64,000 nucleotides of DNA from contig OW804097.1 in assembly GCA_942159475.1 (NCBI GenBank), positions 8,895,685 to 8,959,684 on the forward strand, in the 5' to 3' direction. The first letter of the stretch is position 1; the number at the start of each line of letters is the position of its first letter. This stretch comes from Sthenelais limicola (lineage: Eukaryota > Annelida > Polychaeta > Phyllodocida > Sigalionidae). The notes under the pieces were generated by a model that ran no database searches, was not told where the DNA came from, and saw only the letters and a list, made by a program, of their open reading frames with translations. The translations under genes were made by a program, and so were the position numbers. Positions 19,553-54,744 of the stretch are shown here, one piece after another.

Positions 19553-22500
19553 ATGCCTAAGGTCAAGGATAAGGGCCCCCATGTCCCCAAGGCCCATCCA
19601 TATTGGGGGATGACAATGAAGGAACTCACAGAGCAACTGAAGAAGAGAGGAGCCGATGTTTTAGGTCAAAAGGCAGACCTTGTGGCAAGGCAAGTATAGA
19701 CATGTATAGCAGCTGTTAGATAGTTATATGACTCCATGTCTATATAGGACTCCATTCATGCCCCCATGGGCCCACATTATATTTTGAAACTGTTGGCCTA
19801 CAATCCTATATAGTGTTTGAGTTTATCTTTTAGTGGATATCAGCCTGTTATCACCTTAGGTATAATACAACCTGAACAGATTTTTTAACCTAAAGTGTTA
19901 TGAGATTGAACCGGTGATTAAGATGTCCTTTTTGTGGTCAAGTGACTTCAATTTTCCCTTCAGATTTTCCAATTCATGTTTTATATTTTCTGTGTAGACT
20001 GGAATCATATGATACAAATGCCAACTTAGTGGCCAGTAGTAGCCAGGAAGTACCAGCCTCGGCATCGGCCTCGGCCTCAGACATGGACACTGACACAAAG
20101 GTAAATATATTGTTGTTACTTTAACAGTTAGATACAAGAAATTTTGGTTGTGACCAAGATAAGAACTGTTTCCTCCAAATCCCACTTCAAGTATAGGGCC
20201 TAGGCCTACAGAGTAAATACCCACCATTGATACCCACTCCAAACATTAAAAAAAAGGGGTGTCAAAGACTCAGTGTGCATTACTAACGTTGTGTAAATTA
20301 GAAGACATTACCATGACTAGGGCTACGTACAAGGTCCCCGAAAACTATTGATATAGCATGTGTCACAAACCCTTCAAGACCAATTCACAGTGAGTTGAAA
20401 CTTAAACTAACTGTTGAAATTTGCATATCAAAAAGTTTGGTTGTAGTAGAAGATCCTGTTTCACTCTGAAATTCCAGATATTGAATATGGCAGAGGACCG
20501 GTGAGTATACAACGTTTATTTTCTAACAATCTCAACTTGAGTTTAGTGCTGAGGCACTTTCTGGCAAGGTCAACATGACATCAACACTTTCATTGCAAGC
20601 ACCATGTTTCTTTTGTTCTTGGAACATCAAATTATGTTATCCTGCCTTCTGGGCATATACAGTTATAATCTGATGGTCGATTATTAGACCATGTCCTTTT
20701 TCGTCAACACAATATTTTTTTAGATTTTCAGTTTTCTGCACAAACTCTCTCCGCCCCCCCCCCCACATCCGCACACCTTTGACATTGATATAGGACCACC
20801 TCACATACAGCCAAAACAGACCAAATTATACACTTCACTTCTACTCTGACGAGAATTATACCAATCTGTTAACCAATTTCAACACATTCTTCCAATTCTG
20901 TGATCACATTTCTCCACAATTTGTGGCTTTTCTTCCCAAGAACTATGCTATTGTACTTGATAACTCTCACTTTTACTTTAATTTCATTAATACAGGCATG
21001 AATCACAATGTCATCATTAAAAAACAATTTCCGTCTAACAAAGTAACTTTTAACTGTAAAACAGAGCCAGTTCATGTACACCTTTCTTAAGTATAAATGG
21101 GGCCACCTAACAGTCAGTCAGACTGTAATTAACAGCTGTAGAGATCAAGTAACAACTCTACATGACTGAACCCTTAGAACTAAAAAGAACCAACGAATCC
21201 TGGATCCTGTCAATACTTTATATTAATATGAATAATTTAATATCAAATAATATTGACGTCTGATGCTTAACTGAGATCAAAATATGTAAGGTCTGATTTA
21301 TAAAGCAAAAACATGATGAAATCTGATCGCCTAGTGTCCCAAAGGGTATTTTTTCACTAACTTAAAAAATTCGATGAATATTTAATAAGTTCACCTGTAT
21401 CTAAATTATGAGGAAGGATGGTTGGCTGTCTTGTGTAGGTCTTCTTAAATAATGCATTATAAAATGTGGGCCTCGAGAGAGTATCCCCCTAACAAGATAG
21501 TTACAATAATCAACCCCTTGTATTCCAGTACTGACGCCAGCAGTGTTAAGCCATGGCAAGAGTCCCATGAAGAAGGTCAGAAGATGGTCAGTGGTGACAG
21601 GACACTGGTCAGCAAGTTGTTTGATGGCATGCCTTTACTTAGGTCTGAACTGGTTTTGTCTGATGAGTTCTGGGACTTGTTGGTACAGAAGAAAGTTATT
21701 GACACAAAGTTGAAATCCGATTTAAAGGTATTTTTAATGTACTGTGGGTTATTTTGCTATGAATTTACACACACTAGGAAGAAGGCCCTGATTTACATTA
21801 CTTTCCAAACCTTCATATGTTTAGACTGCTTGTAGGATATAAGATATCAAACAACCAAAATCTATATGTATTTCATGGACACTATAATTTTGCAGGCATT
21901 TGATTCCCAGGAACTCCAAGTGCATGATTTGGTGGGGCACCTGATGAGGGGGAAGTTGCACCAGGTGCATGGTTTCTTCTGGGTTCTTGTCAACACCAAG
22001 CAGCAACACCTTGTAGAGATGCTTGGGTTCCCCACCAGAAAATACATTGATGTCCAGCTGATGCTAAATTGAGTGAAATGTAAAATAGCTTTGATCAAAA
22101 GTAAAAGTTGCTACTTTGTACTAATGTGAGGAACGTTACTGTCAATTTAGATCATTGTTGTTTTGTTCTGGTTCACACATTGTAATGTATTTCTTGTTAC
22201 CTGCAGTTTAGCCAACAGATCTCCCTTATATTTACCATTGAATATAAGGTTGACCGTAAAGTTCAAAAGTGAAGAAAGGGAAGTTCTATGTTCTTCAGTT
22301 TGTTGAGACTGGGTTGAATATTCAAGCAATGACTATGAAAATATGTCCTGAATCTATAACATTTTGTGATGCTTACGGCACATCCTTGGGAGAGGATGGC
22401 CAGAATATTGATAGTGGTAGAGAACTGGTAGTGTTATTAATCAGCACATGTGTTTTCCAGGGAGTGTTGGCAGAGTTGATGCCTTTTAGGTCAGTTTTTT

Positions 22501-25500
22501 ATCATTGTTGGCACAGGTTAACTTGTTATTTATGTTATGCAACTCTTGACAACATATATATTTTGAATTTAAGGTAAGAAAGTATGATCTCCCTCCACAG
22601 GTGTCCAAACCTTTCAAGAGCTTGTCCTCCTCCCCACCCACGTACTGATAGGTATGGAAGCCTGACTTTTTATTGAGACATCATATGTAAAGGTTCTTCT
22701 TTTAGATCATCCTGCATCCACTGTCCGTCTTGCTGTGAGGTATTTTCAAACAAAGCATACGTCCTGATACAGTGTGGACACTATATCTGCCGGCCATGTG
22801 TCAAGGGTGCCCAATACTCAGTGGAAGACAACAAGACAGAGGGTATAACATGCCCAGTACCAGAGTGTGGTAAGGTTACCAAGACTCTCCCAAACAGTGG
22901 ACAAATTGGGTTAGAAGAAGACGATGTTTTCATGGGCATTGTTAGAGATCTCAACAGGGATGGTTCTGAAGATAAACTTTGCCAGCTTTGTTCCTCTGCC
23001 CTTAGCTTATCATTCAGAAGGCATTACTGTACTGGGTGTAAGGAGTTAGTGTGTGATGCTTGCATCAATGATCATGTAGATGATGACCATGTGGAGCATT
23101 ATCAGATCATTCACAAGCATGCTGCAGATGTGTGCTGCCGCCATGGGAGGAAGACAGAAACTGTCTGTTTGGAATGTAACATCTGCAGATGTCAGTCAAA
23201 AGAAGGGGAACCATGTCTGCATCAGGATTTAAGTCAAGGCGCTGAAAAAAACCCCACAAGCTTGCACTACATGGTTAATCGGGATAAAGAAATTAGTGCC
23301 AAGGCAGAAGAGTTTGAAAAGCTTGATGAACTACTGGGAAACCGCAAGGCTGAAATGGTGGAGTACGTAGAGCATCACCGTGATGAAGTGAAAAGGGGAA
23401 TAGATGAATGGTCTGATGACACTCTCTCATACATTTCAAGGATGTCACGCCAAGTAAGTACATTGTGCTCTGCTGGTTAAATTCCCCACTCTTTGGTAGG
23501 ATTCGAACATGAGAAATGTAGAGAAATTGTGCACTGACCATTTAATTCATGCCTTCTTACTGATGGTATTTGAAACATCTCTTTATACCATGATACCACA
23601 TAGGCCATACTTTTCCTTGCTATAGATTCCATCAGCTATATATTTCATAGGTTGTGGGGAAATATTTAATCATCTGAAGAAGGCCAAGTTGGCCAAAAGC
23701 TAGTGAAAATGATAATAAAAATAAAACAACACCTTTTATTGATATCTTGAAATACCAACTAAATTATATATTTCTGCCCTGCCAATATATATAGCGACTT
23801 CCCCACTCTCTAATGTATAATTTTGCAGGCATAAACATTCACAATCGTTTTACTGTATTTAGGCCTAAATACTTTTGCAGGTGAGGTTGAAGCACAAGCA
23901 GTCCCTTCAATGGAAGGCGTTGTCTTCGGATCTCATTGATATTCAAAAAGAACAGCCTTGGGTAGACCTTCCCTTGGACAGTATGGATTTGACCTTACCT
24001 TTTGAGGTGAACACATTTGTGTCAAAAGTCAGAGATGGTGAACCTCCATCAAAAATACTCTGTGGGGTTCCATATCTGCCTGCTCTTGCACCAAGAAAAG
24101 GTAAACAATATGTTTTATACTTATAACATTATTACATACTAGCAAATACCCGTGCTAAGCACAGGATTTGCTAGTGGAACAGTGGGGCCCACATCCTCAT
24201 CTTTCCTTGTTCCCTCTCTCACCATCTTTCTCTTTCAAGTTGTCTCTATAACTTAGTATCTGTATTAACATTCAAACCAAAAATGGAACCCTGTTTAGAT
24301 TCTTTTTTTGGTCACTGTTGTTGTGTTGCCTGTCCCTGTCCCTGTCCCACTCCTGCTGCAGACCCATCCAATATGCAAATCACCTCGTTGTGGTGTAGGG
24401 GCACTGATAGGGGATTGTTTTCAGGCACCGATAGGGACCCGGGATGGGGATGTTCAATTTCAACCCATTTCCAACCCATTTGTAACCCTGATGTCTTCCA
24501 AAAGTGTTAACGAAACATAGTGGAATGGCTCCACACCATTTTTAGCAATGTGCACCAGAAATATATCCGAGATCTGGCCTGCAGTTTTGGAGAAGATAGG
24601 GGTTTTACAACTTTAAACGCTATTCTGTTAATATTTAGATGTTTGAATGAAAGTATTATAAAGAAAGTTTTAAACTATATTTCATTGTGAAAATAGGGAC
24701 TGACCAAACCGATTGAATTCAACGCTCACAATGCTCTCAAATTGATATGAACCATTTGTGAAGTGTTTAAATACTATGATAGTGTGGTGCTTAGATATAA
24801 GTGGGTTACCACGCTTCAAGCATTTTCTGAATAAGGTCTTTTGCTGAATAATCATTCTCTGAGTACTCAGTGAGTAATGTTTCCTAATTCTCCATTTAAG
24901 ACTTAGCTAGAATATGTTAATCGGTTTCAGCTGAATCAGCCTCCATTTGGCTACTCAGTCATCAGTACATAACCTCAAAGAGGATTGCTTAGACCACTTA
25001 ACATCAGTAGGAAATAAACCTTCTGTACTAAGGAATCTGACCCTAGATTATTTGTTTGTGCTATACTCAGTTCCCTAACAGTGAGAAAAAGTGTATGGTT
25101 AAGTCCTTTCTCTTGATTATATGTGATTGTATTATATGTAATTGTGAATAAAAGTTTTATATATATATATAAGTACAGGAACATCAAGGATACTGCTGCG
25201 TATACTACCTTCAAACTTTTGCTACAGCTACATTAGACATTTTGATAATATCCATAATAACATATATTTTCAGCCAAGTACATGGCAGAGTGGCAGATTC
25301 CATGGTCTTACCACACTCCATCGATAGCGTGGACACCTAATGGTCAACTACTGGTTACTACACCTGAAGGCCTCCACCAACTTAACTACAATATGGCATC
25401 ATCATCCTTTACATCAACTCTTGTGTACAACAAAACTTTAGAGGACCTATTTCTGATCAGTACAGCTGAGGATGGATCCTGGGTGATGAGTACAGGTAAA

Positions 25501-26070
25501 TTGGTGATTTATGATGTTAACAAGGGAGGGATCAGGGTCTGGTCTCCTCCTGGTGTAAAGGCTTACAGTGCAGCTATAGATAACTCAGGTATCTATGTCA
25601 GGGATCAAGACTCTTCAACAGTGTACTGGTTCAGCAGAACCCTGAGGGAACAAAGGCAGTATCAGATAGATCCCCAATGGAATTGCAATGACAGTGAGAT
25701 TTATTTAAGCCAAACAGGTGACATCTTGCTGAATACATGGTGTAAACATGTCATTGTTATGGATCCCAAAACAGGAGTAAGCAGATCGTTTGAGAGGAAA
25801 GGTACCAAGCGTAAACCTGACTTATTAGTTGATCTTTGTACTGTGGTTGGGGGTGATTACATCCTTGTGTCTGAGTTACGCAACCATTGTGTGAGTGTAT
25901 TCACATATCAGGGTGACTACCTGCATGATATTCAGATAGAAGGTGGGGCAGGATGGCCATCCAATGTGAGCGTACTGGAGAGGCAGGGAGATCCCACTCT
26001 CATGGCTCTTGTCTGCAGAAATGCAAATGATGAGTATCAGTGGAGTGTGAAATTGTACTCATTGTCATGA
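19553..26070 (+). CDS. copy A: SAP-CARD / RING-B-box-NHL-like TRIM gene, split by lost splice donor
   Basis: Eight exons by comparison with copy B: 19553-19689, 19998-20100, 20478-20500, 21529-21727, 21896-22068, 22706-23453, 23881-24100 and 25274-26070. The ATG follows an in-frame stop (19529). Exon 1 encodes a SAP motif (MTMKELTEQLKKRGADVLGQ), exons 4-5 a CARD-like six-helix domain, exon 6 a C3HC4 RING (CPSC, CGHYICRPC, CPVPEC) with two B-boxes, exons 6-7 a coiled coil, exon 8 an NHL-like propeller. Intron 1 uses a GC donor (AAG|GCAAGT). After exon 5 the expected donor GTGAGT reads TTGAGT, and translation meets TGA at 22070-22072, predicting a 212-residue SAP-CARD protein. Exons 6-8 remain fully open (588 codons) with good splice sites, so the loss is recent, or the 3' half is expressed separately. 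Likely an E3 ligase of immune or death signalling (inference). Confidence 0.75.
21896..22072 (+). CDS. copy A CARD second-half exon with in-frame stop
   Basis: Acceptor TTTTGCAG precedes 21896. The exon encodes helices matching copy B, including DLVGHLMRGKLHQVHGFFWV, and ends QLMLN then TGA. In copy B the same point reads CTAAA|GTGAGT with a proper donor; here it is CTAAATTGAGTG, a single G-to-T change. Skipping the exon would shift the frame (phase 0 in, phase 2 out), so no simple splice bypass exists. The product would be a CARD without the ligase and propeller, comparable in kind to CARD-only regulators, or the gene is a young pseudogene. Confidence 0.75.
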   Translation, partial: AFDSQELQVHDLVGHLMRGKLHQVHGFFWVLVNTKQQHLVEMLGFPTRKYIDVQLMLN

Positions 26071-31205: not shown

Positions 31206-31510
31206 TGTGGCATAGTCAGGTTAGACGACAAACATAAATAAGCAAAGAGCGTCTGTATTACAGCAACGCCATCTTGTGTGAAAGAGCGGAAACACGCTTA
31301 CGCTCCAAATCTTAGTGTCGCCGACTAGCGGAAAAAGATTGAAATATTTTCTTCTTTCTTACAGCATGAGATTTTTAATGGCAATGCGCATTCGCTTGCT
31401 AATACACCTATATTACCATGTTCTAGCTTTGTAGAAGCCCAGAAGGCAGGAAAATGAATAAAAGCTTTAAAACCAAAAAAAAGAAAGTAGTTGGGGTGTA
31501 TTTTGGGTCG

Positions 31511-34219: not shown

Positions 34220-34222
34220 TTA

Positions 34223-34290
34223 GGCCTATACAAAACGGGAAACAGGATTTATAGGGGGGCGTGGGGAATTCCATTCCCTGAAATGAGATT
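34223..34290. repeat. fold-back repeat, remainder of right arm
   Basis: GGCCTATACAAAACGGGAAA and following bases match the complement of 31511-31570 (GGGATTCAGGGTGGG through TTTTGTATAAGCCCC). It was separated from the rest of the arm by the Harbinger-like insertion. Confidence 0.65.
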
Positions 34291-34336
34291 ATCGATTTGA
34301 TGAACAGAAGGGATTAATTATCTCTTCAAGAGACAA

Positions 34337-39440: not shown

Positions 39441-39691
39441 ATGCCCAAGGTCAAGTCTAAAGATGCCCATGTCCCCAAGGACCATCCATATTGGAAGATG
39501 ACAATGAAGCAACTCACAGAGCAACTGAAGAAGAGAGGAGCAGACGTTTTAGGTCATAAAGCAGACCTCGTGGCAAGGCAAGTATAGATATGTATAGAAG
39601 CTGTTGGATAGTTTAGAGAGAGAAGCAGTTGACACTGATTTGAGCCAGGAAGCAGGGCCTGTGTGAGTGTGGGCGGGGCACTATTATAGCA

Positions 39692-39722
<31 letters not shown>

Positions 39723-42700
39723 AGATTTTATTTCGGACAAATTTCACAAACGTGATACCTTTCAATGCCGAAAGTGGCTCTGCATTAATACCCGAGGTTT
39801 TGGATGGTCTGAGTGGTCTGTTGCCTGGTGGACAATTCGAGGGGTGTTAGCCCTGAGAATTTCCACCAGGCAACAGACCACTTAGACCATCCAAAACCTC
39901 AGGTTTTAGTGCTTTTAGACCCGGTTTGGTCAGATTCGACTGTTATTTACCACTTACTGACTTTTATTTACCAGTTCTTTCAATGTCTATAACCCCCATT
40001 CCTTACCGGAAGTTGCCGGAAGTGATTGCCGTGGTCTATTGTGACAAAAATACACCCCAGAATCTGATCAAACTTGGGTCTAACAGACACGGGCTTAGGG
40101 GCAGCAGAGCATACACCTGGGGCTCACACACTGTAGTGTCTGTATGCACCCACCTGTTCCAAGCTGTTGTATGCACATCTTTGAAGTGTCTGGTAAATAC
40201 TGTAGTGCATTTTCACATTTAACTAAATATGTCCAAACATCGCTTTGTTTTGTCCAGAATGGAGAAGTATTTAGATACATTTACCAGTCGTCCATGGAAC
40301 CATGTCCAATTTACCTGCAAAATTATTTATTTTCCTGGAGTGGATAAAACATAATGTGCATGGTGTTGTCACACATATCCTCATGTGGTGTCATTAGATT
40401 TCTGTTATTGGTGGTGTTATTAGATTTCTTTCTGTCACTTAAGAGACTTTTACTCAGGAGCCCTCCCTGTGTCCATTGGCAGCTGTACCCCTATACATAT
40501 AATGTAATTTATTTTTCACCAGTCATGAATCCTATATATATTATATCGAATCATCCCTATTCATATATAGTGTTTGAGTTTATTATTGAGTGAGTATCAG
40601 TTTGTTTTACCTTATTCTTACATAAGGGTAACTACCTAAATTTTCATTCCATTTACATGCTACCTGCATGCTGGCTCATGCCAGAGTTATTATTAATTAA
40701 CTGTGATTGGACAGCTTCACCCATGCAGGTGCCCCCCCTCGCATATAAGGGGCACTCTGACCCCTCATTTGGTAACTTACCATCTGTACCATCTGTAAGA
40801 ACGATATTAGGTGTATAATACATCCTGAACAGATTTTTTAACTCAAGTGTTGTGAGATTGATCCGGTGATACAGATGTTCTTTTGTGGTCAAGTGATTTC
40901 AACTTTCCCTTCAGATTTTATTATTCATGAGTTTTATATTTTCTGTCTAGACTGGAATCATGTGACAGGAATGCCAACTTAGTGACCAGTAGCCAAGAAG
41001 CACCAGTCCCAGATATGAACACTGACACAAAGGTAAATATATCTTTATTCAGCATCAGTCTACATCAGTCCTACTAGTGCTATCACTGACAGTTGCTGCT
41101 ACTTTTAACGCCCAACTCATAATTGTTTCCAATGGCCCAGTCACAAACTGACTCACAGGCACCTTCTAAAAGGTGAAGCGGCTTCTGTATGTCAGACATG
41201 CAACACTCAAGTGAGTGTAGAGCATCTCTTAATACATTGTCAGGCAACCAAGAGAAACAGAATAAAATTCCTGCAAAATCGCAGGACACTGCAGAGTATT
41301 TTCCGGGAATCTACAACGGGAACAAAAATATTCTTGATTTCCTACGGGAAACCAAATTGTACGACAAAATTTAGGTAACCTAAGTGAAGCCTGACTTCGT
41401 CAGGCCAAACTCTGTTTCATGAAATAGGGAGTTTCACAGAATAAAATAATAAAACCACAGTATATCTGCTAACTTTTAATTACTATTAGCGGAGGTGAAA
41501 CTAACCAAACCAAACCAAACCAATTCCAATGGCCTCCCAACACTTGTAATTGTCACCCATACTTATATCAGAAATTTATGTCAGTTGAAACTTATATTAA
41601 CTGTAAATTTTAATTTTGTATCTTGAACCCCATGGCTGTACTGAAACTGAAAGTTTCACTCTGTAATTCCAGATATTGAATATGTCAGAGGCTTGGTGAG
41701 TACATAGCGTTTATTCTCTTAACTAAATTGAGTTTAGTGTCTGCTGAGGCACTTTGTGGCAAGGTAAAAAGAACATCAACACTTTCATTGCATAAACCAA
41801 TGTGTTTTGAGGGGTCTGAGTGGTTAAGGCTAGGACTCTTTTAAACAGTTTGGTTGCTGTACGCCCTGATTGAGTCCTGGGTTTGAATCCCATAGCGACG
41901 TACCATAAGATTAATTTCACCTCCAGACTCCCACCTGCTTGTGTTTAGTGCAAGCATCTTCATTTAACCATTTAGTATTATTTTGTATCAATTTTATCAT
42001 TTTGTATAAATTTTTAAACAATTGTTTAGGGTTATTTCGAGGGGAGGATATTAGACTACCATTACGTTAGACTGTATATAACTATACCTCCATGATATAT
42101 ACAATCGAGAACACCCAGAAACTTTGTTACTTCTCGCGTGCGTTTGTTATGACTTGACCACTGAGCCATATATGGCATGCGCTTGACCACTGACCCTCCA
42201 TATATGGCATGCCCGCTCTATATATGGCATGCCCGCTCCATATATGGCATGCACCAACCCATATGCCCGCGCATGTGCCGTCTCATACGAAAAAACAAGA
42301 TGGCGGCCACGGTCCAGCCAAGAAAATAAAACTGCTTTCTGGCTGCTTTGAATGATTTTACACAATAATCCTGGCATATGAGGTTGAAAACAAGGTTAGA
42401 TTAAACGTTCAGGCATTTATATTCAGTCGCTGGTTAATCATTACGGCTTCGGTAGTCACTGTCCACCACGACCGCCGTACCATAGGTAGATAGGTAGACA
42501 CGCGCATGCGCAATACGAAAACAAGATGGCGGCCACGGTCTTTGCCGTAATCAGCCAAGAAAATAAAACTGCTTTCTGAGCGCTTTGAATGATTTTACAC
42601 AATAATCCTGGCATATGAGGTTGAAAACAAGGTTAGATTAGACGTTCAGTCATTTATATTCAGTCGATGGTTAATCATTACGGCTTTTGTAGTATCCACA

Positions 42701-45700
42701 AGCATAGGCCGGGGCTATAATGACTCGGTGGACATAAGGGTCCACTAGCACGAAGGTCCATTGTGCCGGCTGCTAGGCCCGCTACGGCGTGTGCAGCTAC
42801 GAGCTCCGCCAACACAGCCGCCTAACCCTACGTAGACACGCACATGTGCATGAGGCTAAGTAAAAAGCATGGCTTCCCACAAGACGGAGGTGGTGATATT
42901 TCCACCAAAAGGAATATCGTCAGACTATAATATGTTCATAAACTATTGTTTGGGATAGTATTTGAAGTCAACATGACTGATTTATGCAGATTATACGGAT
43001 GTTATTGTGTCAGAGACCAGAAACGGGTTCGCTCGAAGAATGTGCGATCGGTGAAATTGTAAATACTAATAAAAAGGTTGGTTAGATTTAATTCGATATG
43101 CTTCATTTCTTTCGATTTCCAAGCCTATGTCAGTTCTGTTTGCCTCGAGAAAGCCTGTACATATAATCATTACGCATTCTTAAGCTGGTAGAACTGACAG
43201 CAACAGGCTTGTGTGTGTGCGTGGCTTCAAATCAACTACGTAATTCTGTAAGGAACATCAACATGTTAAAAAATGAACAAATATGGTTGGAATCTTGAGA
43301 AATCTGCTAATATATAGGCTAGTATCACTCAATATAAACTATAAAGCCTCGTTGAATGATATGTTGTAAAGAATTGCAATTCTTGTGGGTTGAATTTACC
43401 ACTAAAATGGCATCCAACTACTCTGACTTCATCATTTCCATACCGAATCTCTGGGCAAATTGCCATTGCATTCTCACAATGTCATGTTGATTTGTCTATA
43501 CATGAACTTAGAATCTGTAATATTGTGTAATTATTGCAAGGTGTAAATATCAGTAGGTCATCAAAATTATTCACAGATTCCAGACACAGTGGAGGGGGGA
43601 TGTTTAAAATGGCTTCCATACGATATTGGATCTCATGTACTGTTTATGAGAATATTATAGTATTTACTCTAATGTTGTCATGCACATTTATATAGCTCAA
43701 AGAAAGAAAATAAAGTTTGGAAAGCTGTTTGGTCAGCAAGGACATATTATTTTTCGGGAACTAGTTCAAGCATTAGAATGAAATTATTATTTCAGTGTTT
43801 TCCATTGATTTCATGTTTCTAGACCTAGTCGATCAACTATTTCCACTTTCCGATCGACCATTTCCACTTTTCGATCGACTATTTCCACTTTTCGATCGAC
43901 TAGTTCGTACTTATGCAATTACACACTCCGTACATACATTTTTATTTTAATAATATACATTGCAGTTTTGAATCGGAACTTCAGGTGAAGGTCAGTAAGA
44001 GGTGTCCCCTGAAATATTCTCCCCCGCAATGTCTTAAATGTTGTAAGATCGTCTTAAGATACTGTAAGTCGACTTACATATAAGATTCCCTAAAATCACG
44101 TTAGTACAACAGAATTTAAGATCATCTTATATTTTGGTAACCATCTTAAATATAAGACAAGTGCCTTCGGCACTTGGATTGTAGAGGCAGTTGTGTTTCT
44201 ACTTCTTATAGGAATCCAACAATTTAGTTAATCAAAAAGTCAGAATAGTCAATAGAAAAGTCAGTCACCTTCTCATAGATTATATTTCATGATATCAAGA
44301 GTAATTAGAGACAACAGATAATATATCTCTAAGCCAACTGATCCACCGCAACTGTTAGACTGTTAAACTGTGTCCGACCCGATGGGGCCGAGAGGTCCTT
44401 TAAAAGACTGTTAAAATTAGGAGTATTAGCTTGTTATCAATAACCAATGAAATTCCAATTAATTTAAATTTATACAAAACTAATAAGAAGAACAATCAAC
44501 CAGGATGCTAACTCTGCTTTATGAGTATGAGTACCACAGCTGTCATCACCACCTCAGTTTCTTTCTTCTGGCATATCTATCATCCTGGGGTCAGCTGGGG
44601 GTGCCAGCAGGTTTGCTGGGGTTTAGAAATCGTATAATGTATAATTTACATGCAATGACGTGCAATGAGCTAGTTTCAGTGTCACATCCACATCTATTTT
44701 TAGTAACTCAGTGGGGTGACTTAATTTCTTCAAGTACATGTATATATAGCTAGTTGTAGGGGTAAGTGTGGAAACGAGATATTTAGTGTTGAATTGTTTG
44801 AGATTATGTTCATATTTTTCAGCTCTGCTCTTTGCTAGATTGATTTTCCATTGTACTTAGGACCCATATTTTGTCGGGGAATTTATCCGACTTTTTACCA
44901 GCCTCCCACTTTCATCCCTGTTGTTTATAACAAATGGTCAGAGCACAGCTTGCACCATATTCAAAGAGACCCCAACCAACAGGGTCACCTGTATCTAAAT
45001 TATTCTCACTGACGAATGATGGTTGGGTGTAGGTCTTCTTAAATAATGATTGCAGTTCTGCAATATAGAATGTGTGCCTCAGGAAGTGCTATATATAGGT
45101 ACGCGCGTATAATTAAAACCTATTATGGTAGTATACTCCCCCTTCATATATCTTGGGTAGTAGCCCCCCTACTATTCTAGATATGCAAGCCCGCACATGC
45201 GTGCTTGGACGTGTGGGTCATGCCCACACTCACATAGAGAATAAAAAGTTAACATCAAGAAGCCGCCGTGTCCACTTGCTTTTTCCCTTACATTATATAC
45301 GATAATATAACAGAAGTAGTCCCTCTAACAAGATTGTTACAATAATCAAACCCTTTTATTCCAGTACTGACACCAGCAGTGTTAAACCATGGCAAGAGTC
45401 CCATGAAGAAGGTCAGAAGATGGTCAGTGGTGACAGGACACTGGTCAGCAAGTTGTTTGATGGCATGCCTTTACTTAGGTCTGAACTGGTTGTGTCTGAT
45501 GAGTTCTGGGACATGTTGGTACAGAAGAAAGTTATTGACACAAAGTTGAAATCCGATTTAAAGGTATTTTTAATGTACTTTGGGTTATTTTGCTATTTTC
45601 TAAGGGAAAGTGCACTTCCTTATTTTTGTTTACTTTCCAAACCTTGATATCTTTTTGACTGCTTGTAGGGCATAAAGATAATTGTATTGGCATATAACTG

Positions 45701-48700
45701 ATTTTTTTTAAAAAAAAAAGATCCAAAATCTATAATTATGATGCATATATCATGGATACAATACATTTTCCAGGCATTCGATACCCAGGAACTCCAGGTG
45801 CATGATTTGGTGGGGCACCTGATGAAAGACAAGGTGCACCAGGTGCATGGTTTCCTCTGGGTGCTGGTGCACACTAAGCAGCATAGCCTAGTGGAGCAGT
45901 TGGGCTTCCCTGCCAAAAACTACTGTGATGCCCAGCCAATGCTAAAGTGAGTAATTAATAATGTGTTAAAATGTCTATGATCAATTTGCTACTTTTAAAT
46001 AAATGTGGGAAACATCATGGTTGGCTTGATCTGGTTCTCACATTATCTCAAATAAAGTACAGCTGTCAGTACAATTGTGCTGATATACACCGTTTCAGCG
46101 AGCATGCGCAGTGAGTTTGACCAGGAGAATTAAACATTGGGTTAGAAAAACTAGGTCACAGTGACCAGCCATGGGATTACGCTTGGATCACATTTGCTCA
46201 CAAAACTCACATATCAGGGAAGAACAAGTAATTCCTTTTCTCATATATCCAAAGGGATATGTGATCTATCGATCTGGTAAAATGAACTACTTTTAAAATA
46301 CTTAATAAAGAATTTAGATGAGTTTGAAGTTGTTGCATTGGCATGCTGTTGGTTTGCGCATGTTCCTTGAGCCACCTCCCATTGAGCAAGCAGGCAACTG
46401 TGGATCGCCCAGTCCCTATAACTAGGGGTGAGTTATGTGTTTCTACAGAGGCAGAGGCAGATCTTCTAGTGTTGCAGGAAATGCAACAGATTGAGGGGAC
46501 CTTGGATTTATCTAGTGTGGTCATGGTAGTTTTCTCTTCTATTTTAAAAACTATTGAAGTGGGAATGACCTGTCCATGCATATCTCCCAGTGTCCCAGTG
46601 GTGTAACCCATTCCGCTGGCTATCCCCAAGCATGCTTCATCCACTGTTTCTGACATAGAATTTAATCAAATATTTCAGGTTTTTGCTGATGTGACATCCT
46701 AATGTATTTTAACAGTATGGAAAAAGAACTCTTGGCCATTAACTCACAGAAATCCTGATTCATTTCTATGAGGAAAAACGACCTTACTGAACTTGAGAAG
46801 TCTTAAAAAGTTGACTTCCCCCATGTATAAGTATAGGTCGGGGAACTTTCTATCCTAACAAGTTAGTTCAGAATTCTACCAATGGTGACGGGCCTCTAAC
46901 CGAAACACTGCAGGTTCTCTTATTAAATAAAGTCATACCTGCAGTATACAAATATCCCTAGTAATTACAACCTTGAAAGAAACATTTGAAATGTCCTAAA
47001 CAGACCCCATGATTCGCCAAACTACCCAAAATCAATTTTGATGTCACCCTGGCTAAAACAGCTGTGTTACCCTTCGCCAGCCAAGCCAGTGCGAATGGGT
47101 TGTGGGCATGGTTTGGTTGAAGTTTGAATCATGTTTTCCTCCCTTTAGATCCCTAATAAGCAATTTGTTGCTAATAGTGAGCGTGGAACAGGTTATAACT
47201 GGACTGGTATGAGTTTGTTTGAACTTAGATGGTTTGAGATGAAGCTTGTGCAGTCCTGAAAAAAGTTTTTGTTTTTGTAAAATGATAGAAATACTAAATC
47301 ACATTTGTACTGATGGCATGAATGTAAAAAGGGGTATTTGGTAGAAATGGATGATTAAATATCAATCCGGTATAAATTGAGTGAAAGATAACAGAAATTG
47401 ATATAATCATTTAACATAATACCATTAATTTTATCAAAAGTAAGGCTACCTCTTATAATCTGTATAGTCTTTAATCTTCCAGATGTTTTTCCAATTAAAT
47501 CATTAAAACTACTTTCAAATTTGAGATCTTCTTGTAACGCAATGCCTAGATATCTAAATTTCATGACCCATTCAATTTCCATTTTAATTTGATTTATTGG
47601 TTGTATGTCTCTGTTATGCACTTTATTACATTGCTTTAGTTTTTTGTTAAGTTATACCAAGTTTGTTGAAGTTGTTGATTTTCTCACAGTCCCTGATAAC
47701 TGAGTCTATGAGTTTTGCATAACTGTCTTCTATATTTGATAAAACTTCACTTCAAGTTTCATATTAGCCTCTAGTACTAAGTTGTTAATATCAATCAAAT
47801 ATAGTATAAACATTAAAGGACCAAGTATTGACCCCTGTGGAACTCAGGTTATGATATTGGCTTTTTTTGAAATTCTTGTACTGTTACCTGTTGGCTTCTG
47901 CCTTGCAGGTAACTTCTAGGCAATTTTATGGTTTTATCACTAATATTGTAAACTTTTCATTTATTCAACAATGGATTATATGGCACACAGTCAAAAGCCT
48001 TAAAGTGGCTAAGATAGTTAAAAACACAGGTTTGGGAATAAAATTGAATAAATATCTGTTAAAGAATGAAATATATCATTTCGGCTTCTCCAGGGATTTT
48101 TTAGGTAGGTTCAGACAGACAATATACTAGAATAGTGGGAAGAAATTGTGTTACTCATGATTCTAGCCCAGAACAGTGAGAAGAGTCTTTAAGATAATCA
48201 AAAAATGTACATGCTATGAATTTCTTGTCATTAAAACCCTTAAAAACAGGGCCAAACAGCTAGTGCTGCTCCCGAACAATTAGTGTTTATACACATGGAA
48301 GCCTGACTTATCATAGACATGATACAACACCTGATGATGCCCAAACCAGGGCGAAAGCTTGTGAATAAACCATAGAAAATCATAACACAGGGTTTTATTC
48401 CATCCCATTAAGGAAACATCAATTATGTAGAACCCGGCCCCCCTAGTATAACACCATCACTTCTCACCTGCAATATTTATCATAGACATATTCTAAGTAA
48501 AGTTTTTGCTTTCAGATCATCCTGTATCAAATGTCCATCATGCCTGGAGGTATTTACCACCAAGGCCTACATTATGGTGCAGTGTGGACACTATGTCTGT
48601 CGTCCCTGTATCAAGGGTGCCTGTTTCTCAGTGGAAGCAGACAAGACAGAGGCTATAACATGCCCTGTACCAGATTGTGGTGAGGTTACCAAGACACTCC

Positions 48701-51700
48701 CAAACAGTGGACTGGAAGAAGATGAAGTTTTCATGGGTATTGTTGGAGATCTTATGAAGGATAGTTTTGAAGATGAAATTTGCCACCTTTGTTCCTCCGA
48801 CGTTAGCTTATCTTTCAGAAAGCATTACTGTACTAAATGTAAGGAGTTACTGTGCGGGGCATGCATCAATGAGCATAGTGATGCCTGCATCAATGAGCAT
48901 TACAGGATTTATGGTCATCGGATCATCCACAAGCATGCTGCAGATGTGTGTTGCCTCCACGGGAAGAAAACCGAAACTTTCTGTAGGAAATGTAACATCT
49001 TCAGATGTCAGTCAAAAGAAGAGGAGCCTTGTGAACATCAGGATTCAAGTGGAGACGCTGAATATAAAAATACAAGCTTGGAACACATGATCAATCAGGA
49101 TAAAATGATTGGTGACAAGGTAAAAGAGTACAAGACGCTTGATGAAGGCATAGAGAAGCGCAGGGCTGAAATGGTGGAGTATGTAGAACATCATCGTGAT
49201 GAAGTGAAAAGGGTTATGGATGAATGGTCTGATGACAATCTGTCATACATTTCAAGGATGACACGCCAAGTAAGTACATTGTGCTGCTTCAATGACTCTT
49301 TTAGTTGCATGAGTGATGGTCATTTTCTATAAGGTATTAAGTAGTTGCTTGCTGTTGATTGCTAATCAGATTTAGATATAGGAGGATATATTCTCATACT
49401 TATAGTCACTACAGTTGAGGGGACTGTTACTGCATCATGCACCAGCAGGCCCCTCAATGGCGGTCATAATTTATTTAACAGTTAGTTATGTAAAAATTGT
49501 TTTTTGTTTGAATTGGAGTTGAGTCCTGCATACCAACCATCTCGTTAATGCAAACAACCCATAATTAGGACCTGTTTGACTTCAATTCAATTCAATTAAA
49601 AAATTGCTGTTGGAATTAAAAGTGTTTGGTGTTTGTCTCTGACTTGATGTAGTAATGATGCAACCATAGTTTTCCAGCCCCAATAACCCTAGCTCTCACT
49701 CTAACGGCCACTTATAGTTTATGGCAGGGTAATTATAGAGCGGGGATATCTCTCTGATGTCGAGGTGTGGAAGAAGGCATATTCCATTAGTTCCTCTTAA
49801 TCAGTTCACATCTCCATTAAAAACAGCTGGGCTCGACGCCCTCGACCCAATTTGGGGGGAAGTTCCTCCTGTCTTAGATTTAATCCTCTCTCCTCTAAGC
49901 CAGGTCATGATAGCACATATCAAGTAGGCGACCTTTAATGGCACTTAAAATCATAAAATGACGCCTAAATGACCAATGGATATATGGCCATCCCTCCCCT
50001 TCCCAGTTCCCTCTAAAGGAAAGGAGCGCTAAACTATACCAAGGCTCATTATTGTAGGATTAATAGGAAATTTGCATGTCTCACTGCGCATGTCTACTGC
50101 AGTGCATGCTGGGATGGATTCTGGTGAAATCCAACAAACAAAAAGGGTTCTCCATTAATGCTCGCCTGATCTTGCCTGATGTCCTGGGGGCATGATTTCA
50201 GTTAGTGGAGACCCCTGAAAAATATTTGGCAACATTTTTATCGAAAAATACAACCATGTCTTCACCAACATCAGAGTTTGTATGAATGATATATTAAAAC
50301 CAAATGCATGATGGGAAAGATGGGGACTTGTGTCATGGAACCATGTAAAACACAGGTATTGACATTAGCGCATTAATGAATATTCCATGCTGAACATGGG
50401 ATGTTTTCTATAGAGATTAGACTGAACCATTAGTCCCATAATTCCATGATTCAAAATGGCGGTTATGCAAATCCCTTATTCTACTTGGATTCATAATCAT
50501 TTTCCTTTTCAGGTGAGGGTGAAGCACAAGCAGTCACTTCAATGGAAGGCATTGTCTTCAGAACTCATTGGTATTCAAAAAGAACAGCCTTGGGTGAACC
50601 TTCCCCTGGACAGTAAGGACCTAACATTGTCTCCTGACGTGGTAGACTTTGTTGTTAAATTCAGAGCGGGTGAGCCTCTGTCAAGCATACTCGGTGGAGT
50701 GCCATATGTGCCTTCACCTGCACCAAGAAAAGGTGAGGAATATTTTAAATTAATCTTTTAACTTCCGTTACTGAAATTAGTTTCTTTCCTGTCCACTTGG
50801 ACTATGGGGCCATGCAGCACCTTATGGTGGCTTAACCCTTTCCTCTGAAATGAGTAGTTTTCTAACCCATTCATTACACATATTCAATACCACAATGTTG
50901 GCCCCATAATTTCCTGCAAATCAAGATTCAAAATGGCACTGCTATACCTATCATATATGATTACACTGACAAAGTTTAACGAGATTTCATGACTACTTAT
51001 TTAACTATCTTAGCCACTTTAATAAAGTGTACACAGGTCAGGTCTACATATTCTGCTAATGTAGTCTGAAAAGTGATATATACTCGCTATATCCAAATTT
51101 TGTCATTGTTATGAGGGACGGATCGCTCAGGTGTTAGACTTTGTCCTACTTGATCCTCCTATGATGGGCCCTCATTTTGCCATGACCCATATTAACACTG
51201 TACTCAGGGCTCGACTGCTAAGTCGCACATGGTGTTTGTTTACTTTTCAGTGCTGTAGTGGAAGTGGGTCCCAGTCAGTGTGGTGGTGGTGATGGAGCGG
51301 CCAAATTTTTTTGACTTTATGACAAGACTTTTCCAACTTAACGGACTTTTCTGACTTAAAATGAATTTACAACCAACTTAAACTTGACTTTTTTTCACTT
51401 TGCAAGTGACTTTTTCAACTTTGTAACTACTTTTGTGACTGTACGACTGACTTTTCTGACTGTTTTCCGACTACTATTATGATTGATTTTTTTTTAACTT
51501 CACGGCTAAAGTTTCGACTGACATAACAACTGTACAACTACTTGACCATATCATCAACTGCTTTTAGTATCCTGTTAGGACAGGGCAATGGGTGAGACAA
51601 TCCATACAACACCAATGAAGACATACATTACACATTAAAGGACAGGTGATAGACTGATACACCACAGCTGATAGGCTTGTTGCTAGAATGATATTAGTTG

Positions 51701-54700
51701 CTCTGACAACTGCCCTCCTGGTGAAGTAGCTAGAATGATAGACCGTAGCTGATGGAGTAGATCCATCCTGATCCAGATAAATCTAACAAGGTGATGGCTG
51801 TCAACTTGTTAGGTACTAATATTGCAGTTTGTTTTTTCTATTTTTGCTGGGTTGGCTATTTTTTCTCTAAGCTATGGTATTAGTCATTCAAGTTGACAAG
51901 TTGTCATGAAGGTTAACACAATAATATGGTTGTGTTAAACAGGTTGATAGGCCGCGTAAGTGTCATGGTGGCGGGGCGCGAATTAATGAAAATTAGTCGC
52001 GTAGTTGTACTGATGTGTGGACCGGAAGTAAATAATCCCCATAGAGTTAGCATTGGGGCAATAAATAATCACTCTATACATCGTATATATTGAACGAAGC
52101 GAGTACGTCCACCTGGCCCAGCCAAACTGCTACCATGCAATGAAGACTAGAACGTCTCCATAGCGATGTTATTACATCACAGGCGATGCCATGTAACAGT
52201 TGTGATGTTTCAACTGTTATTATTATTTATTGTTTTTTCCATAACAAATGATGGTTTTAATAAATAATAACCCTTCTGCCGTGTTAATATTGTTATAATA
52301 AGGAATTTGTTGTAAAAATTCCCATAATCCACTAGTGGGCAGGGGGGGGCCCCTTCCCCTTTGGGGGCGGGGCTTGTTGGCATTACATGGTTTCGCTCCT
52401 GGGGGAGCTCATCAGGCAGTCCTCAAGTAACAACAAAGGTTGATACAGGTGGCAATTTGTATCAGAAGTGACACTGACTTAATTAAGTCACAGATTTTGA
52501 AATAAAACCCCAAAAGAAGGAAGGGGTTACTTCCAAAAAATGTTAAAAGGTTGCATTTGGCCCCAGGTGGGGGCTGGATGCTGTGACTGGACTAGGTTCA
52601 GTCGGGATGTCCAGGGACGGCTGGCGTCGGGGACGTGTGGGTAGGGGAGATGGATGATCTGAGGTCGACGACGTTGGGGATAAAAATTTAGATACTATAT
52701 ACATCGTCCCAGTAACGGTTTGATGATTATGAAGGCTATAGTTGAAATTGTTTGCCTCTAAAGATGGATATATGTAAGTTAGAACTCATAAAACTGTATG
52801 ATCCATGGACAAACAGAGATTATTTATCTCCGCAATGGTGGAGCTTTGCGCGACATGTCCACATGACGTCATGAAACTGCGACAGTAGCACGACTCAAAA
52901 ACTCGCTGCCGTGGACTATTTACGCGCCCTATATCGGATCTTGTATGCTGTTAATGATAATATTGTGGTATTTTCTTTAATGTTATCACTTTTATATAGC
53001 TCTAAGAGAGAAAATAAGGTTTGAAGTGCTCTTTATTCCAAATTCAAAATGTTTCTTGAAGGATATTGAAGCCATGTGAGATTTAAATGAGAGGTATATG
53101 ATTTGTATAAGCAGCCATGTTGAAGATTCATAACGTTAACATTTATCAATTTTTTGTTTAGGTATTATAACTTGATATTATGATTTTGTAACTAGTTAAA
53201 GCATCATAATAATGTTTTGAGATGACATGGTAGAACTGTCAGGAACAATAAAGCGTTTTCTCCATGGTTCACAACAATATATTTCTATTATTTAATGATT
53301 AAATGAAGATACTTTATGAGTTGTTATATGGTTGATTGTACATATATATTGACAAATTTAATATCCTGAAGAATAAATTCCATTTATTTCATTGTTTTTA
53401 AGGGGTCATTCAAAAATTATGTAACGCATTTTTGTCTCAAAATGTACACCCCCCCTCTGCATTACGCCCCAGAATGTTATAGTGAAGAAATGCGGGCCAT
53501 TCTTCGTAATAATTCAGGGTCAGAGAGATAACGGTCAGACCTGGACCTCACCGGTACCTTTGGACTTTGGGATGATAAGAAATCCGCGAGCGTTGTGGCG
53601 GTAAGAAAGTGTGGGTAGCCTTCTGGCCGGTAGGGGCGCGACGAATGTCTGGCTGAATGAGACAACTTTAACTCAAAATTAGACAATTTAGGCTTGTCAA
53701 TTTTACAATAGTATGGGACCGTCTGACATCCCCCCCCCACCCCCACCCCCCTCGAGCGTTACATAATTTTTGAATGACCCCTAAGCTCATCTGTTGTCCC
53801 CATCTCCCTGCCCCCCCCCTCTCTCTCTCTCTCTTAAAATCCAACCAACCCAGCAATATCTGTCAGTAGACGATTGCTGTTGTTATTAGAAATTTTCATG
53901 ATATGCTTGATAACATGCATTTTCAGCTAAGTTCATGGCAGAGTGGCAGCTTCCTCCATGTGAATACAATGCATCAATAGCCTGGACACATGATGGTGCA
54001 CTGCTTGTTACTTCATCTACAGGCCTCCACCAGGTTAACTACAATATGGCATCCAGCACCTTCACAGCTTCACTCATACACAGCACCACAGCAGAACCTT
54101 TGCAGATCAGCGCAGCCGAGGATGGATCCTGGGTAATGACTGATACAGAAAAACTGGTGATTCATGATGTTAACAAGGGAGAGGTAAGGGAGTGGTTTCC
54201 TCCTGGTATAACGGCTCACAGTGCAGCTATTGATAACACATGTATCTATGTCAGGGAGGAATACTCACCCACAGTATACATATACAGCAGGGACCTGGTG
54301 GAGCAAAGGCAGTATCACATAGATCTTAAGAGGTGGTATTGTGATGACACTTTTATTCATTTAAGCCAAACAGGTGACATCTTGCTTGAGTCTCATCGGA
54401 ATCAATCCGTCCTTGTCATGGATTCCAAAACAGGAAAAAGCAGATCATTTGAGAGGATCACAGGTCCCGACAGTGATGAAGAACCCATAGTCAGTCTTTG
54501 TACTATGGGAAAGGGTCAGTACATCCTTGTGTCTGAGTTAGACTCCTCTTTTGTGAGGGTATTCACGTATCAGGGTGAATACCTGCATAATATAAAGATA
54601 GAAGGTGGGATTTACTTACCAGCTCGTGTGAGCATACTGGAGAGGCAGGGAGAGCCCACTGTCATGGCTCTCACCTCGTATGCATATGATGGTGGGCCGT

Positions 54701-54744
54701 TTAGGAGTGATCAGCATTATGTCAAGTTGTACACACTGTCATGA
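39441..54744 (+). CDS. copy B: SAP-CARD-RING-B-box-coiled coil-NHL-like protein
   Basis: Eight exons: 39441-39577, 40951-41032, 41673-41695, 45365-45563, 45774-45946, 48516-49269, 50513-50732 and 53927-54744; 2406 nt, 801 residues, all junctions in phase. The ATG (ACCACCATGC) follows an in-frame stop (39420). Domains: SAP 19-48; CARD-like about 92-195; RING 211-259 (C211, C214, C228, H230, C233, C236, C254, C259); B-box type zinc sites 294-345 and 350-382 (C350/351, H353, C361, C364, C369); coiled coil about 390-470; NHL-like propeller about 533-801 with repeats such as VFTYQGEYLHNIKIEGG. Known RING/B-box/coiled-coil proteins are E3 ubiquitin ligases; CARD suggests assembly with death-fold partners; SAP usually binds DNA. 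Together a sensor-ligase role is plausible but inferred. Intron 1 begins with GC. Introns 1, 3 and 7 are swollen by transposons. Confidence 0.85.
39577..39583 (+). other. GC splice donor of intron 1, copy B
   Basis: Exon 1 must end AAG|GCAAGT to stay in frame with exon 2 (A CTG GAA TCA). Using the nearby GT instead gives an early stop in copy A and the wrong phase. The same AAG|GCAAGT stands at 19689/19690 in copy A, and matches the best GC-AG donor consensus. Confidence 0.75.
39686..39718 (+). repeat. poly-T tract
   Basis: About 33 consecutive T within intron 1 of copy B; likely a retroposed poly-A tail in reverse or simple repeat expansion. Confidence 0.9.
39782..40083. mobile_element. hairpin MITE, copy 1 (intron 1 of copy B)
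   Basis: About 300 bp, similar throughout to 55934-56231. The first 115 bases (39790-39904) form a hairpin with about 43-bp arms (ACCCGAGGTTTTGGATGGTC against its near-perfect complement). The remainder has a second inverted pair: GACCCGGTTTGGTCAGATTC near 39917 and its near-complement ending at 40080. No coding frame. Confidence 0.8.
41138..41523 (+). mobile_element. LINE 3' end with target-site duplication
   Basis: Flanked by TTCCAATGGCC at 41127-41137 and 41524-41534. One frame reads a CCHC-like tail (CQTCNTQVSVEHLLIHCQAT) typical of the C-terminus of Jockey/CR1-type reverse transcriptases, followed by a short 3' UTR and an AACCA-type microsatellite tail (near 41500-41522). It is a 5'-truncated, dead copy inside intron 2 of gene B and absent from gene A. 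Confidence 0.75.
41808..41905 (+). mobile_element. tRNA-derived SINE head
   Basis: Carries an A-box-like CTGAGTGGTTAAGG and a B-box GGTTTGAATCC about 65 bases later, the spacing of a Leu/Ser-type tRNA with a variable arm. The cloverleaf does not close well, so it is not a functional tRNA. It interrupts intron 3 of copy B just after sequence shared with copy A. Confidence 0.55.
42160..42262 (+). repeat. tandem repeat of CATATATGGCATGC
   Basis: Four copies of ATATATGGCATGCCCGCTC-like units of 19-30 bp in intron 3 of copy B. Confidence 0.8.
42286..42694 (+). repeat. direct duplication (about 238 bp step) with YY1/TISU and NRF1 motifs
   Basis: 42286-42457 and 42524-42694 share about 170 bp at high identity. 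Each begins with CAAGATGGCGGCCACGG, which fits the TISU consensus (SAASATGGCGGC) and YY1 core. The second is preceded by GCGCATGCGC (42512-42521), the NRF1 palindrome. The ATG in the first opens 9 codons and in the second 17 codons before a stop. It is either a nested promoter inside intron 3 of copy B or a retained piece of one. Confidence 0.6.
43828..43908 (+). repeat. 21-bp tandem repeat
   Basis: Units of TTTCCACTTTTCGATCGACTA, about 3.5 copies, bounded by CTAGTCGATC and GATCGACTAG, so the whole block begins and ends as an inverted pair. Confidence 0.85.
45087..45312. mobile_element. solo LTR, 226 bp
   Basis: Begins TGCTATATATAGG and ends ATAATATAACA, bounded by GAAG at 45083-45086 and 45313-45316. 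The corresponding intron of copy A lacks it and is continuous across the site. TG...CA ends with a short target duplication indicate a solo long terminal repeat. AATAAA occurs near 45240 in the plus orientation. Orientation not settled. Confidence 0.65.
47355..48125 (-). pseudogene. LINE reverse transcriptase fragment (Jockey/CR1-type)
   Basis: On the minus strand the order of RT blocks is kept: KAFDCVPYNPLLN near 48010-47972, a SYLQGR block, VPQGSILGPLMFILY near 47848-47804, then KFRYLGIALQEDLKFESSF near 47560-47505. The frames change between blocks and the YxDD motif is missing. Dead copy within intron 5 of gene B. A nearby segment (48330-48400) resembles a separate retroelement tail. Confidence 0.8.
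51305..51550 (+). repeat. cryptic simple sequence rich in GACTTTT/AACTT
   Basis: GACTTT, ACTTTT and AACTT words recur irregularly about twenty times across this intron 7 segment without a fixed period; a degenerate short-word expansion. Confidence 0.6.
51948..52931. mobile_element. MITE with TAGGGCGCGTAAGT ends, copy 2
   Basis: Same family as 18458-18827, ends TAGGCCGCGTAAGT and TTTACGCGCCCTA. It is 984 bp because another 613-bp sequence sits inside it. Without that and one duplication it is about 361 bp, close to copy 1. It keeps the TGACGTCA palindrome (52864-52871). Located in intron 7 of copy B. Confidence 0.75.
52085..52697. mobile_element. 613-bp insertion nested in MITE copy 2
   Basis: Bounded by a 10-bp direct repeat TATACATCGT (52075-52084 and 52698-52707); copy 1 of the MITE is continuous at this place. 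No coding frame and no clear terminal inverted repeats. Contains a block TTTCGCTCCTGGGGGAGCTC. Class unknown. Confidence 0.7.
53402..53781. mobile_element. Harbinger-like MITE, 380 bp
   Basis: Perfect inverted ends of about 26 bp starting GGGGTCATTCAAAAATTATG, with TAA at 53399-53401 and 53782-53784. The TWA duplication and GGGG start match the 31893-34219 element in kind, though the sequences differ. In intron 7 of copy B. The frames inside are not genes. Confidence 0.85.

Follow-up and report, generated by a model that had tools for sequence, protein, structure and literature searches.

A large, mostly clustered family of putative TRIM-NHL-type ubiquitin ligases with a CARD-like domain before the RING in Sthenelais limicola

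In known pathways, TRIM ligases and CARD adaptors mostly reside on different polypeptides and have to be brought together. A CARD lies directly before the RING in cIAP1 and cIAP2, and SAP and a RING-type module share one chain in SAP-bearing E3 ligases such as PIAS and RAD18; to our knowledge, ligases of the latter type possess no CARD, B-box, or propeller. Among the closest described proteins are those of the TRIM-NHL type (TRIM2, TRIM3, TRIM32, TRIM56, TRIM71, and Brat), which the account of subfamily C presents with a RING, B-box fingers, and a C-terminal NHL-type propeller, TRIM56 being classed there with loss of the end domain (Marin, 2012; PMC3503706). This study concerns two tandem genes, copy 1 and copy 2, found in a 64,000-nucleotide (nt) stretch of the annelid Sthenelais limicola (hereafter the window; C4:8895685-8959684, contig OW804097.1, of a 1.13-Gb assembly), whose predicted products resemble them in a RING, B-box-like fingers, and a predicted NHL-type propeller. 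We propose, with a probability of about one half, that both belong to a large, mostly clustered family of TRIM-NHL-type ligases in which a CARD-like domain is fused before the RING and which may serve as diversified sensors.

Copy 1 spans 19553..26070 and copy 2 spans 39441..54744 (window numbering, both on the plus strand). An exon-by-exon rebuild gave eight exons per copy with identical phases throughout and lengths, in order from exon 1 to exon 8 (copy 1/copy 2), of 137, 103/82, 23, 199, 173, 748/754, 220, and 797/818 nt, which bears out the preliminary description of eight-exon paralogues with matching phases and equal lengths of exons 1, 3, 4, 5, and 7. The joined proteins comprise 799 amino acids (aa) in copy 1 and 801 aa in copy 2 and are 69% identical (557 of 813 columns, gaps and stop counted). 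Intron 1 is of the GC-AG type in both copies; the same context, (A or G)AG/GCAAGT with the slash at the exon end, was found in eight of nine further SAP exons (four of the nine sit in a dispersed repeat), while the ninth (L052) has an insertion and a sequence context that ends early. The exons are as follows.

19553..19689, plus strand: copy 1 exon 1, start codon and SAP motif, then GC donor (Pfam SAP 23.9 bits, cut-off 23.9)
19998..20100, plus strand: copy 1 exon 2, linker (exon rebuild)
20478..20500, plus strand: copy 1 exon 3, micro-exon of 23 nt (23 nt also in copy 2; 20 nt in copy 0, counted by hand)
21529..21727, plus strand: copy 1 exon 4, first half of the CARD-like domain (98% identity to copy 2, probable gene conversion)
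21896..22068, plus strand: copy 1 exon 5, second half of the CARD-like domain, TT donor (exon rebuild and donor listing)
22706..23453, plus strand: copy 1 exon 6, RING (last ligand pair C-x4-C), B-box-1-like finger, degenerate B-box 2, helical tail
23881..24100, plus strand: copy 1 exon 7, linker (exon rebuild)
25274..26070, plus strand: copy 1 exon 8, NHL-type propeller and stop
39441..39577, plus strand: copy 2 exon 1, start codon and SAP motif, GC donor (Pfam SAP 21.8 bits, cut-off 23.9)
40951..41032, plus strand: copy 2 exon 2 (exon rebuild)
41673..41695, plus strand: copy 2 exon 3, micro-exon (exon rebuild)
45365..45563, plus strand: copy 2 exon 4, first half of the CARD-like domain
45774..45946, plus strand: copy 2 exon 5, second half of the CARD-like domain, GT donor
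48516..49269, plus strand: copy 2 exon 6, RING, B-box-1-like finger, degenerate B-box 2, helical tail
50513..50732, plus strand: copy 2 exon 7 (exon rebuild)
53927..54744, plus strand: copy 2 exon 8, NHL-type propeller (24 modelled strands, read as six blades) and stop

Evidence for the architecture comes from its recurrence across the genome. A search with exon 6 returned 150 matches (150 of 215 candidates scored), among them at least 81 copies of most of this RING/B-box exon with scores of at least 275 bits, 57-100% identity, and no internal stop; 80 of these span nearly the whole exon, and one (copy 0) covers residues 39-250. Contig C4 holds 70 of the 81 listed copies, and four of its stretches contain 15, 9, 7, and 21 of them. 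Copy 0 is a third tandem copy, located upstream on the same strand (C4 8835404 to about 8872980; L012-L016), with SAP, both CARD exons, the B-box exon, the linker, and the propeller. The preliminary description of two tandem genes was thus correct as to the tandem arrangement and too low in number, there being three in tandem and at least 81 RING-exon copies genome-wide.

Exon linkage was assessed with 81 of 150 matches for exon 6, 82 of 139 for exon 5, 86 of 109 for exon 4, 36 of 36 for SAP, and 78 of 143 for exon 8; the candidates scored were 150 of 215, 150 of 185, 139 of 139, 39 of 39, and 142 of 293, respectively, so that copy numbers, being drawn from the scored candidates, are lower bounds. 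In 80 of the 81 exon 6 copies, an exon 5 match precedes exon 6 on its own strand at no more than 15 kb (median distance 1.5 kb), compared with 6 copies on the wrong side of the same strand and, on the opposite strand, none upstream and 2 downstream. For exon 4, 80 of 81 likewise have a match upstream within 20 kb (wrong side 17; opposite strand 0 and 2). With a limit of 40 kb, 73 copies have the propeller exon downstream, against 7 and 2 on the opposite strand, and 28 have a SAP exon upstream, against 1 and 0. When neighbouring genes were taken as limits, a propeller exon was retained by 71 of the 81 copies, a SAP exon that could be recognised by 25, and all four exon types together by 23; a second SAP query (37 matches, one new place) was left out of the count of 25. 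Two observations weigh against this picture: at the same 40-kb limit, 32 of 81 copies also have exon 8 on the wrong side and 13 have SAP there, because the family genes are clustered, which makes both links less exact, and exon 6 of copy 0 lacks its first ~38 residues and hence six of the eight RING ligands, its later frame being open. The exon order recurs genome-wide, and the architecture therefore goes beyond chance. CARD-like domain, RING, B-box, and propeller form the family core, whereas SAP plus CARD before the RING, given the SAP exon beside 25 of the 81 copies, describes a subset of about a third. The SAP-CARD-RING-B-box-NHL order reported for the two window genes consequently holds across the family in its CARD-RING part (80 of 81 copies), and its SAP part was recognised in a minority.

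The SAP first exon with its GC donor is also carried by a dispersed repeat on C1, C7, C8, and C1 (L054, L055, L056, and L057, respectively), the four fetched copies of which are 97-98% identical over 557-721 nt. They were drawn from ten SAP matches with no listed family exon within 60 kb downstream, and the arrangement looks like exon capture by a mobile element.

More distant exon 6 matches on C8, C9, C6, and C4 (134.8-135.0 Mb) cover mainly the RING part (about residues 2-90), and weaker exon 5 and exon 8 matches lie, by eye, beside several of them, so that these CARD-like, RING, and propeller matches may belong to another branch of greater age. No family match was found in ten 10-kb stretches starting 10 kb downstream of the window, and no relative in scans of prokaryote genomes and viral contigs; none of 4916 candidates from a protein database, a collection seemingly without animals, reached an E value of 1e-3 or better, and Rfam gave nothing within the window at gathering scores. 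These negatives apply to the collections scanned and do not speak against relatives elsewhere.

The individual domains of the window copies are assigned with unequal certainty. The RING noted in the preliminary description is upheld by one Pfam model above cut-off in each copy (28 against a cut-off of 27.9 bits, E 2.1e-6, and 26.3 against 25.2 bits, E 7.6e-6), with the TRIM32 RING as best match in the PDB (E 0.0013); its last ligand pair is C-x4-C instead of C-x2-C. Pfam SAP (PF02037) stands at its cut-off in copy 1 and just below it in copy 2, so that the SAP call is secured by this measure for the first copy only. B-boxes had also been described; the first finger fits in ligand spacing, whereas the second is degenerate and does not keep the canonical spacing, and the B-box model PF00643 had no match up to E 10 in either copy. 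The B-box 1 region is also a weak match to FYVE (Pfam E 0.0045 in copy 1 and 0.44 in copy 2; PDB E about 0.002), and by rough arithmetic PF00643, as placed in two ordinary B-box genes of this genome, aligns with exon 6 residues from about 144-147 onward. A coiled coil, also claimed earlier, is uncertain: 22 and 44 of 300 shuffles reached the heptad score.

Copy 1 differs from its relatives at a single splice site. Exon 5 ends AAA/TTGAGT in copy 1 and AAA/GTGAGT in copy 2, and read-through after this exon meets a stop directly after the split codon in both, the unspliced chains being 212 aa and 205 aa long, respectively. As assembled, copy 1 would give a 212-aa SAP-CARD product; this speaks against a full ligase from this copy, and the earlier statement that the joined one-chain model is firm fails for it. 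None of six alternative donors listed within 21896-22300 is both in frame and stop-free. The exon 5 donor is GT in all 19 readable paralogues (20 stretches were fetched, and L036, which had no exon 4 match, was dropped), as well as in copy 2 and copy 0, and copy 1 is the exception among 22 copies because the other 21 have GT. Its exons 6-8 nevertheless remain open over 588 codons, and we therefore conclude that the TT donor is either a recent change or an assembly error. In the alignable non-coding flanks of copies 1 and 2, 24 of 31 gaps are not multiples of three; the coding nucleotide alignment has 18 gaps, 11 of which are not multiples of three and cancel one another, since the exon lengths differ by multiples of three only.

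That copy 1 no longer encodes a full protein, and is either a 212-aa SAP-CARD gene (possibly a CARD-only decoy) or an incipient pseudogene, is an alternative for which we consider the chances evenly balanced: the immediate stop behind the TT donor and the GT donor in the other 21 of 22 copies favour it, whereas the open exons 6-8 speak against it and point to a recent change or an error of assembly. A model of separate SAP-CARD and RING-NHL genes was rejected for the family because the exon 5-6 donor is kept in 21 of 22 copies and because exon 6 offers no in-frame ATG before the end of the RING in copy 1 and has its first one within the RING in copy 2, while the frame ahead of the exon is open for only 10 and 35 codons, respectively; copy 1 itself may fit such a model.

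The C-terminal part is predicted to fold as an NHL-type propeller, and the predicted fold matches NHL domains, including those of RNA-bound Brat and Trim71. In sequence, the NHL repeat PF01436 matched copy 1 weakly (10.7 bits, cut-off 20, E 0.6) and copy 2 not at all, and the PDB match was to Brat at E 0.5; the NHL-like propeller of the preliminary description is thus backed by the predicted fold, with a weak sequence match in one copy. Ratios of nonsynonymous to synonymous substitution (dN/dS; dN and dS being the respective rates) were estimated pairwise by the Nei-Gojobori method. Among copies 0, 1, and 2 they were 0.71-0.84 for the propeller, 0.24-0.30 for exon 5, and 0.39-0.63 for exon 6, the higher exon 6 values coming from comparisons with the RING-less copy 0. 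Exon 4 differs from the rest, as it is 98% identical between copies 1 and 2, with a dS of 0.026 compared with 0.28-0.52 in the other seven exons. Because of this low dS, and because exon 4 of copy 0 is only 52-53% identical to the other two, gene conversion between copies 1 and 2 is probable here, the conversion-like tract comprising exon 4 and its upstream flank (about 21350-21750 in copy 1 and 45365-45563 with flank in copy 2).

Across 13 genes (10 fetched exon 8 copies and copies 0, 1, and 2), the propeller gave an overall dN/dS of 0.69, with 0.43 in strands and 1.04 in loops, and exon 6 gave 0.26 in 12 genes (10 fetched and copies 1 and 2). With the alternation of faces taken from the strand order of the model, loops after odd strands (face A) reached 1.20 (dN 0.43) and loops after even strands (face B) 0.76 (dN 0.15). 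A column bootstrap gave 95% intervals of 0.93-1.55 for face A and 0.50-1.23 for face B, with A above B in 96% of replicates, and in the better-modelled residues 1-175 the values were 1.10 (0.81-1.51) for face A, 0.79 (0.49-1.33) for face B, and 0.36 for strands. The earlier view of the propeller as a sensor gains support from this fast change in the loops of one face, although the interval includes 1. The propeller exon also has a lower dS than exon 6 (0.315 compared with 0.604), and the higher dS of exon 6 accounts for part of the contrast in dN/dS; both facts weigh against selection by ligands and make relaxed constraint after duplication compatible with the data. As a full explanation of the fast propeller change we hold relaxed constraint to be doubtful: the face A intervals favour it, for the whole propeller and for residues 1-175 alike, but genes sampled from the same clusters keep exon 6 and the propeller strands at low ratios, and face A exceeds face B in 96% of bootstraps.

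In the mechanism that we envisage for the family as diversified sensors, the variable face of the propeller would bind a varied non-self or altered-self ligand, and binding would cluster the ligase and free or polymerise the CARD. The RING might then ubiquitinate CARD partners or the ligand and so feed an innate-immune or cell-death pathway, while in SAP-bearing members this motif may tether the protein to nucleic acid. We infer the sensor, E3, and signalling roles from sequence and prediction. The main alternative to a recruiting CARD would be a CARD that acts chiefly as an intramolecular brake on the RING, as is reported for cIAP1, and recruits no CARD partner. It is suggested by a review that ascribes to the CARD of cIAPs the control of both activating dimerisation and enzymatic activity, and which cites a paper titled as CARD-mediated autoinhibition of cIAP1 (PMC8869227). 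In both window copies, the CARD exon ends about three residues ahead of the first RING cysteine, as might suit such a brake. Set against it, no BIR model or other IAP feature was found among the Pfam matches of the window copies up to E 10, and the constraint on exon 5 is compatible with brake and recruiting roles alike; we regard the brake as tentative and rather less likely than not.

Whether the segment encoded by exons 4 and 5 is a CARD at all bears on both readings. A profile of 10 CARDs scored 10.2 bits in copy 2 and 6.9 bits in copy 1, with the best windows in the exon 4-5 part, and plain shuffles scored as well in 0 of 4000 and 4 of 4000 cases, respectively (0 of 2795 and 2 of 944 in an earlier run). 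With a leave-one-out procedure, real CARDs scored 28-55 bits, and the death domain of NGFR scored 9.4 bits on the CARD profile. Profiles of the death domain, the death effector domain, and the pyrin domain remained at chance level on this segment. In hhalign, 95 columns of a profile of 22 family sequences could be aligned to that of the CARDs (P 2.6e-5, probability 49%), whereas the profiles of the other three death folds gave no alignment; the CARD profile reached at least 10 bits in 10 of the 22 members, at best 19.2. Pfam CARD (PF00619) matched 5 of 10 paralogues (E 0.00051, 0.0026, 0.017, 0.052, and 0.053). A family profile built from 11 of the 22 sequences retrieved nine PDB entries up to E 10, the first of which is a de novo designed protein (7vty, E 0.018) and the other eight caspase, caspase-9, or an ASC construct (E 0.078-1.7).

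Several results weigh against the CARD assignment. The window copies themselves have no CARD match in Pfam or the PDB up to E 10, and since they match no library, the case for a CARD is moved by the paralogues only. Shuffles that keep the hydrophobic pattern matched the profile score in 33 of 4000 cases for copy 2 and 116 of 4000 for copy 1 (78 and 260 of 4000 with a 13-CARD profile). The Pfam cut-off of 23.9 bits was reached by none of the 10 paralogues (best 20.4) and neither window copy, the 10 having been taken from the 22 family sequences with the six best by CARD profile included; unrelated Pfam models reached E 0.005-0.09 in the same scan, and the two best CARD matches, which span profile positions 7-82 of 85, are close relatives. 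Intron 4 is a multiple of three in both copies (168 nt in copy 1 and 210 nt in copy 2), and a structure model of exon 4, intron 4, and exon 5 read through, with intron stops as residues, had a predicted local distance difference test score of 37 and was not usable.

A helical bundle specific to this family, and not a CARD, would account for the silent window copies, the frequent pattern-keeping shuffles, the hhalign probability below one half, and the five paralogues with no Pfam CARD match. It is unlikely, given that the two best paralogues cover almost the whole Pfam CARD model, that the PDB matches are nearly all CARD proteins (seven of them, as caspase or caspase-9 entries, being non-independent), and that the other death-fold profiles stay at chance. 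We therefore consider the segment probably a remote CARD, and the CARD-like domain of the preliminary description is made probable by the paralogue matches in Pfam, all below cut-off, and by the family-profile matches in the PDB. A housekeeping-like TRIM-NHL RNA regulator of the Brat or Lin41 type, duplicated by chance and binding RNA and DNA through propeller and SAP, would suit the fold matches to RNA-bound Brat and Trim71 and the presence of a SAP motif, but is improbable, as at least 81 copies with unconstrained one-face loops are unlike a conserved RNA regulator and SAP stands beside only 25 of the 81 listed copies.

The rest of the window contains mobile and repeated sequence. A Ty3/Gypsy-type pol frame, named by eye, occupies 58584-64000 on the minus strand and runs off the window edge; after it comes a frame that resembles env and matches Baculo_F (PF12259, 26.9 bits, cut-off 24.1), which indicates an envelope-bearing retroelement. 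Pieces of a reverse transcriptase like that of long interspersed elements lie at 29365-30829 on the plus strand, one of them with a zf-RVT match. Two similar 16-nt minisatellites (CTTTCAACCCCTGGTC) in opposite orientation were found at 844-1018 and 5316-5483, and a perfect 103-nt doublet at 10219-10427.

Among the titles and abstract beginnings listed by full-text searches of the open literature, none showed such an architecture; subscription journals and genome annotation lie outside this scope, and the genes may be present in gene sets. In the same literature, "CARD-RING" occurs in nine papers, seven of which deal in title or abstract with cIAPs, IAP antagonists, or RIPK1. In the text on subfamily C (PMC3503706), "SAP" does not occur and "CARD" appears only in two references. 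Compared with the TRIM-NHL proteins described there, the family reported here has a CARD-like domain, and in part SAP, before the RING, a C-x4-C last ligand pair, a degenerate second B-box, and at least 81 RING-exon copies, and the Pfam matches of the window copies include no filamin domain. Its CARD-like domain is placed directly before the RING, as is the CARD in cIAP1 and cIAP2 (BIR, UBA, CARD, RING), but it differs from them in having no BIR or UBA among the Pfam matches and in bearing B-box fingers and a propeller after the RING; as no BIR is among these matches, the family is, to judge from its domains, not an IAP. Apaf-1 homologues with varied N-terminal death-fold domains similarly join a death fold to a propeller-type receptor end, with an NB-ARC ATPase in the middle where the present proteins have a putative ubiquitin ligase (PMC2246300). 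It is conceivable, if rather unlikely, that the genes constitute an undescribed class of germline-diversified immune receptors, with about 80 or more members, in which sensor, ligase, and CARD arm share one chain, a SAP-bearing subset acts on nucleic acid, and RING-less or RING-uncoupled members such as copies 0 and 1 act as CARD decoys. On the best reading, what is new is a TRIM-NHL-like ligase family with an N-terminal CARD-like domain and, in part, SAP. If this reading is true, a CARD and a TRIM ligase in one chain, with a propeller variable on one face, would give an invertebrate a ready-made receptor family, and the question whether propellers of the TRIM-NHL type can act as receptors for pathogens would become testable.

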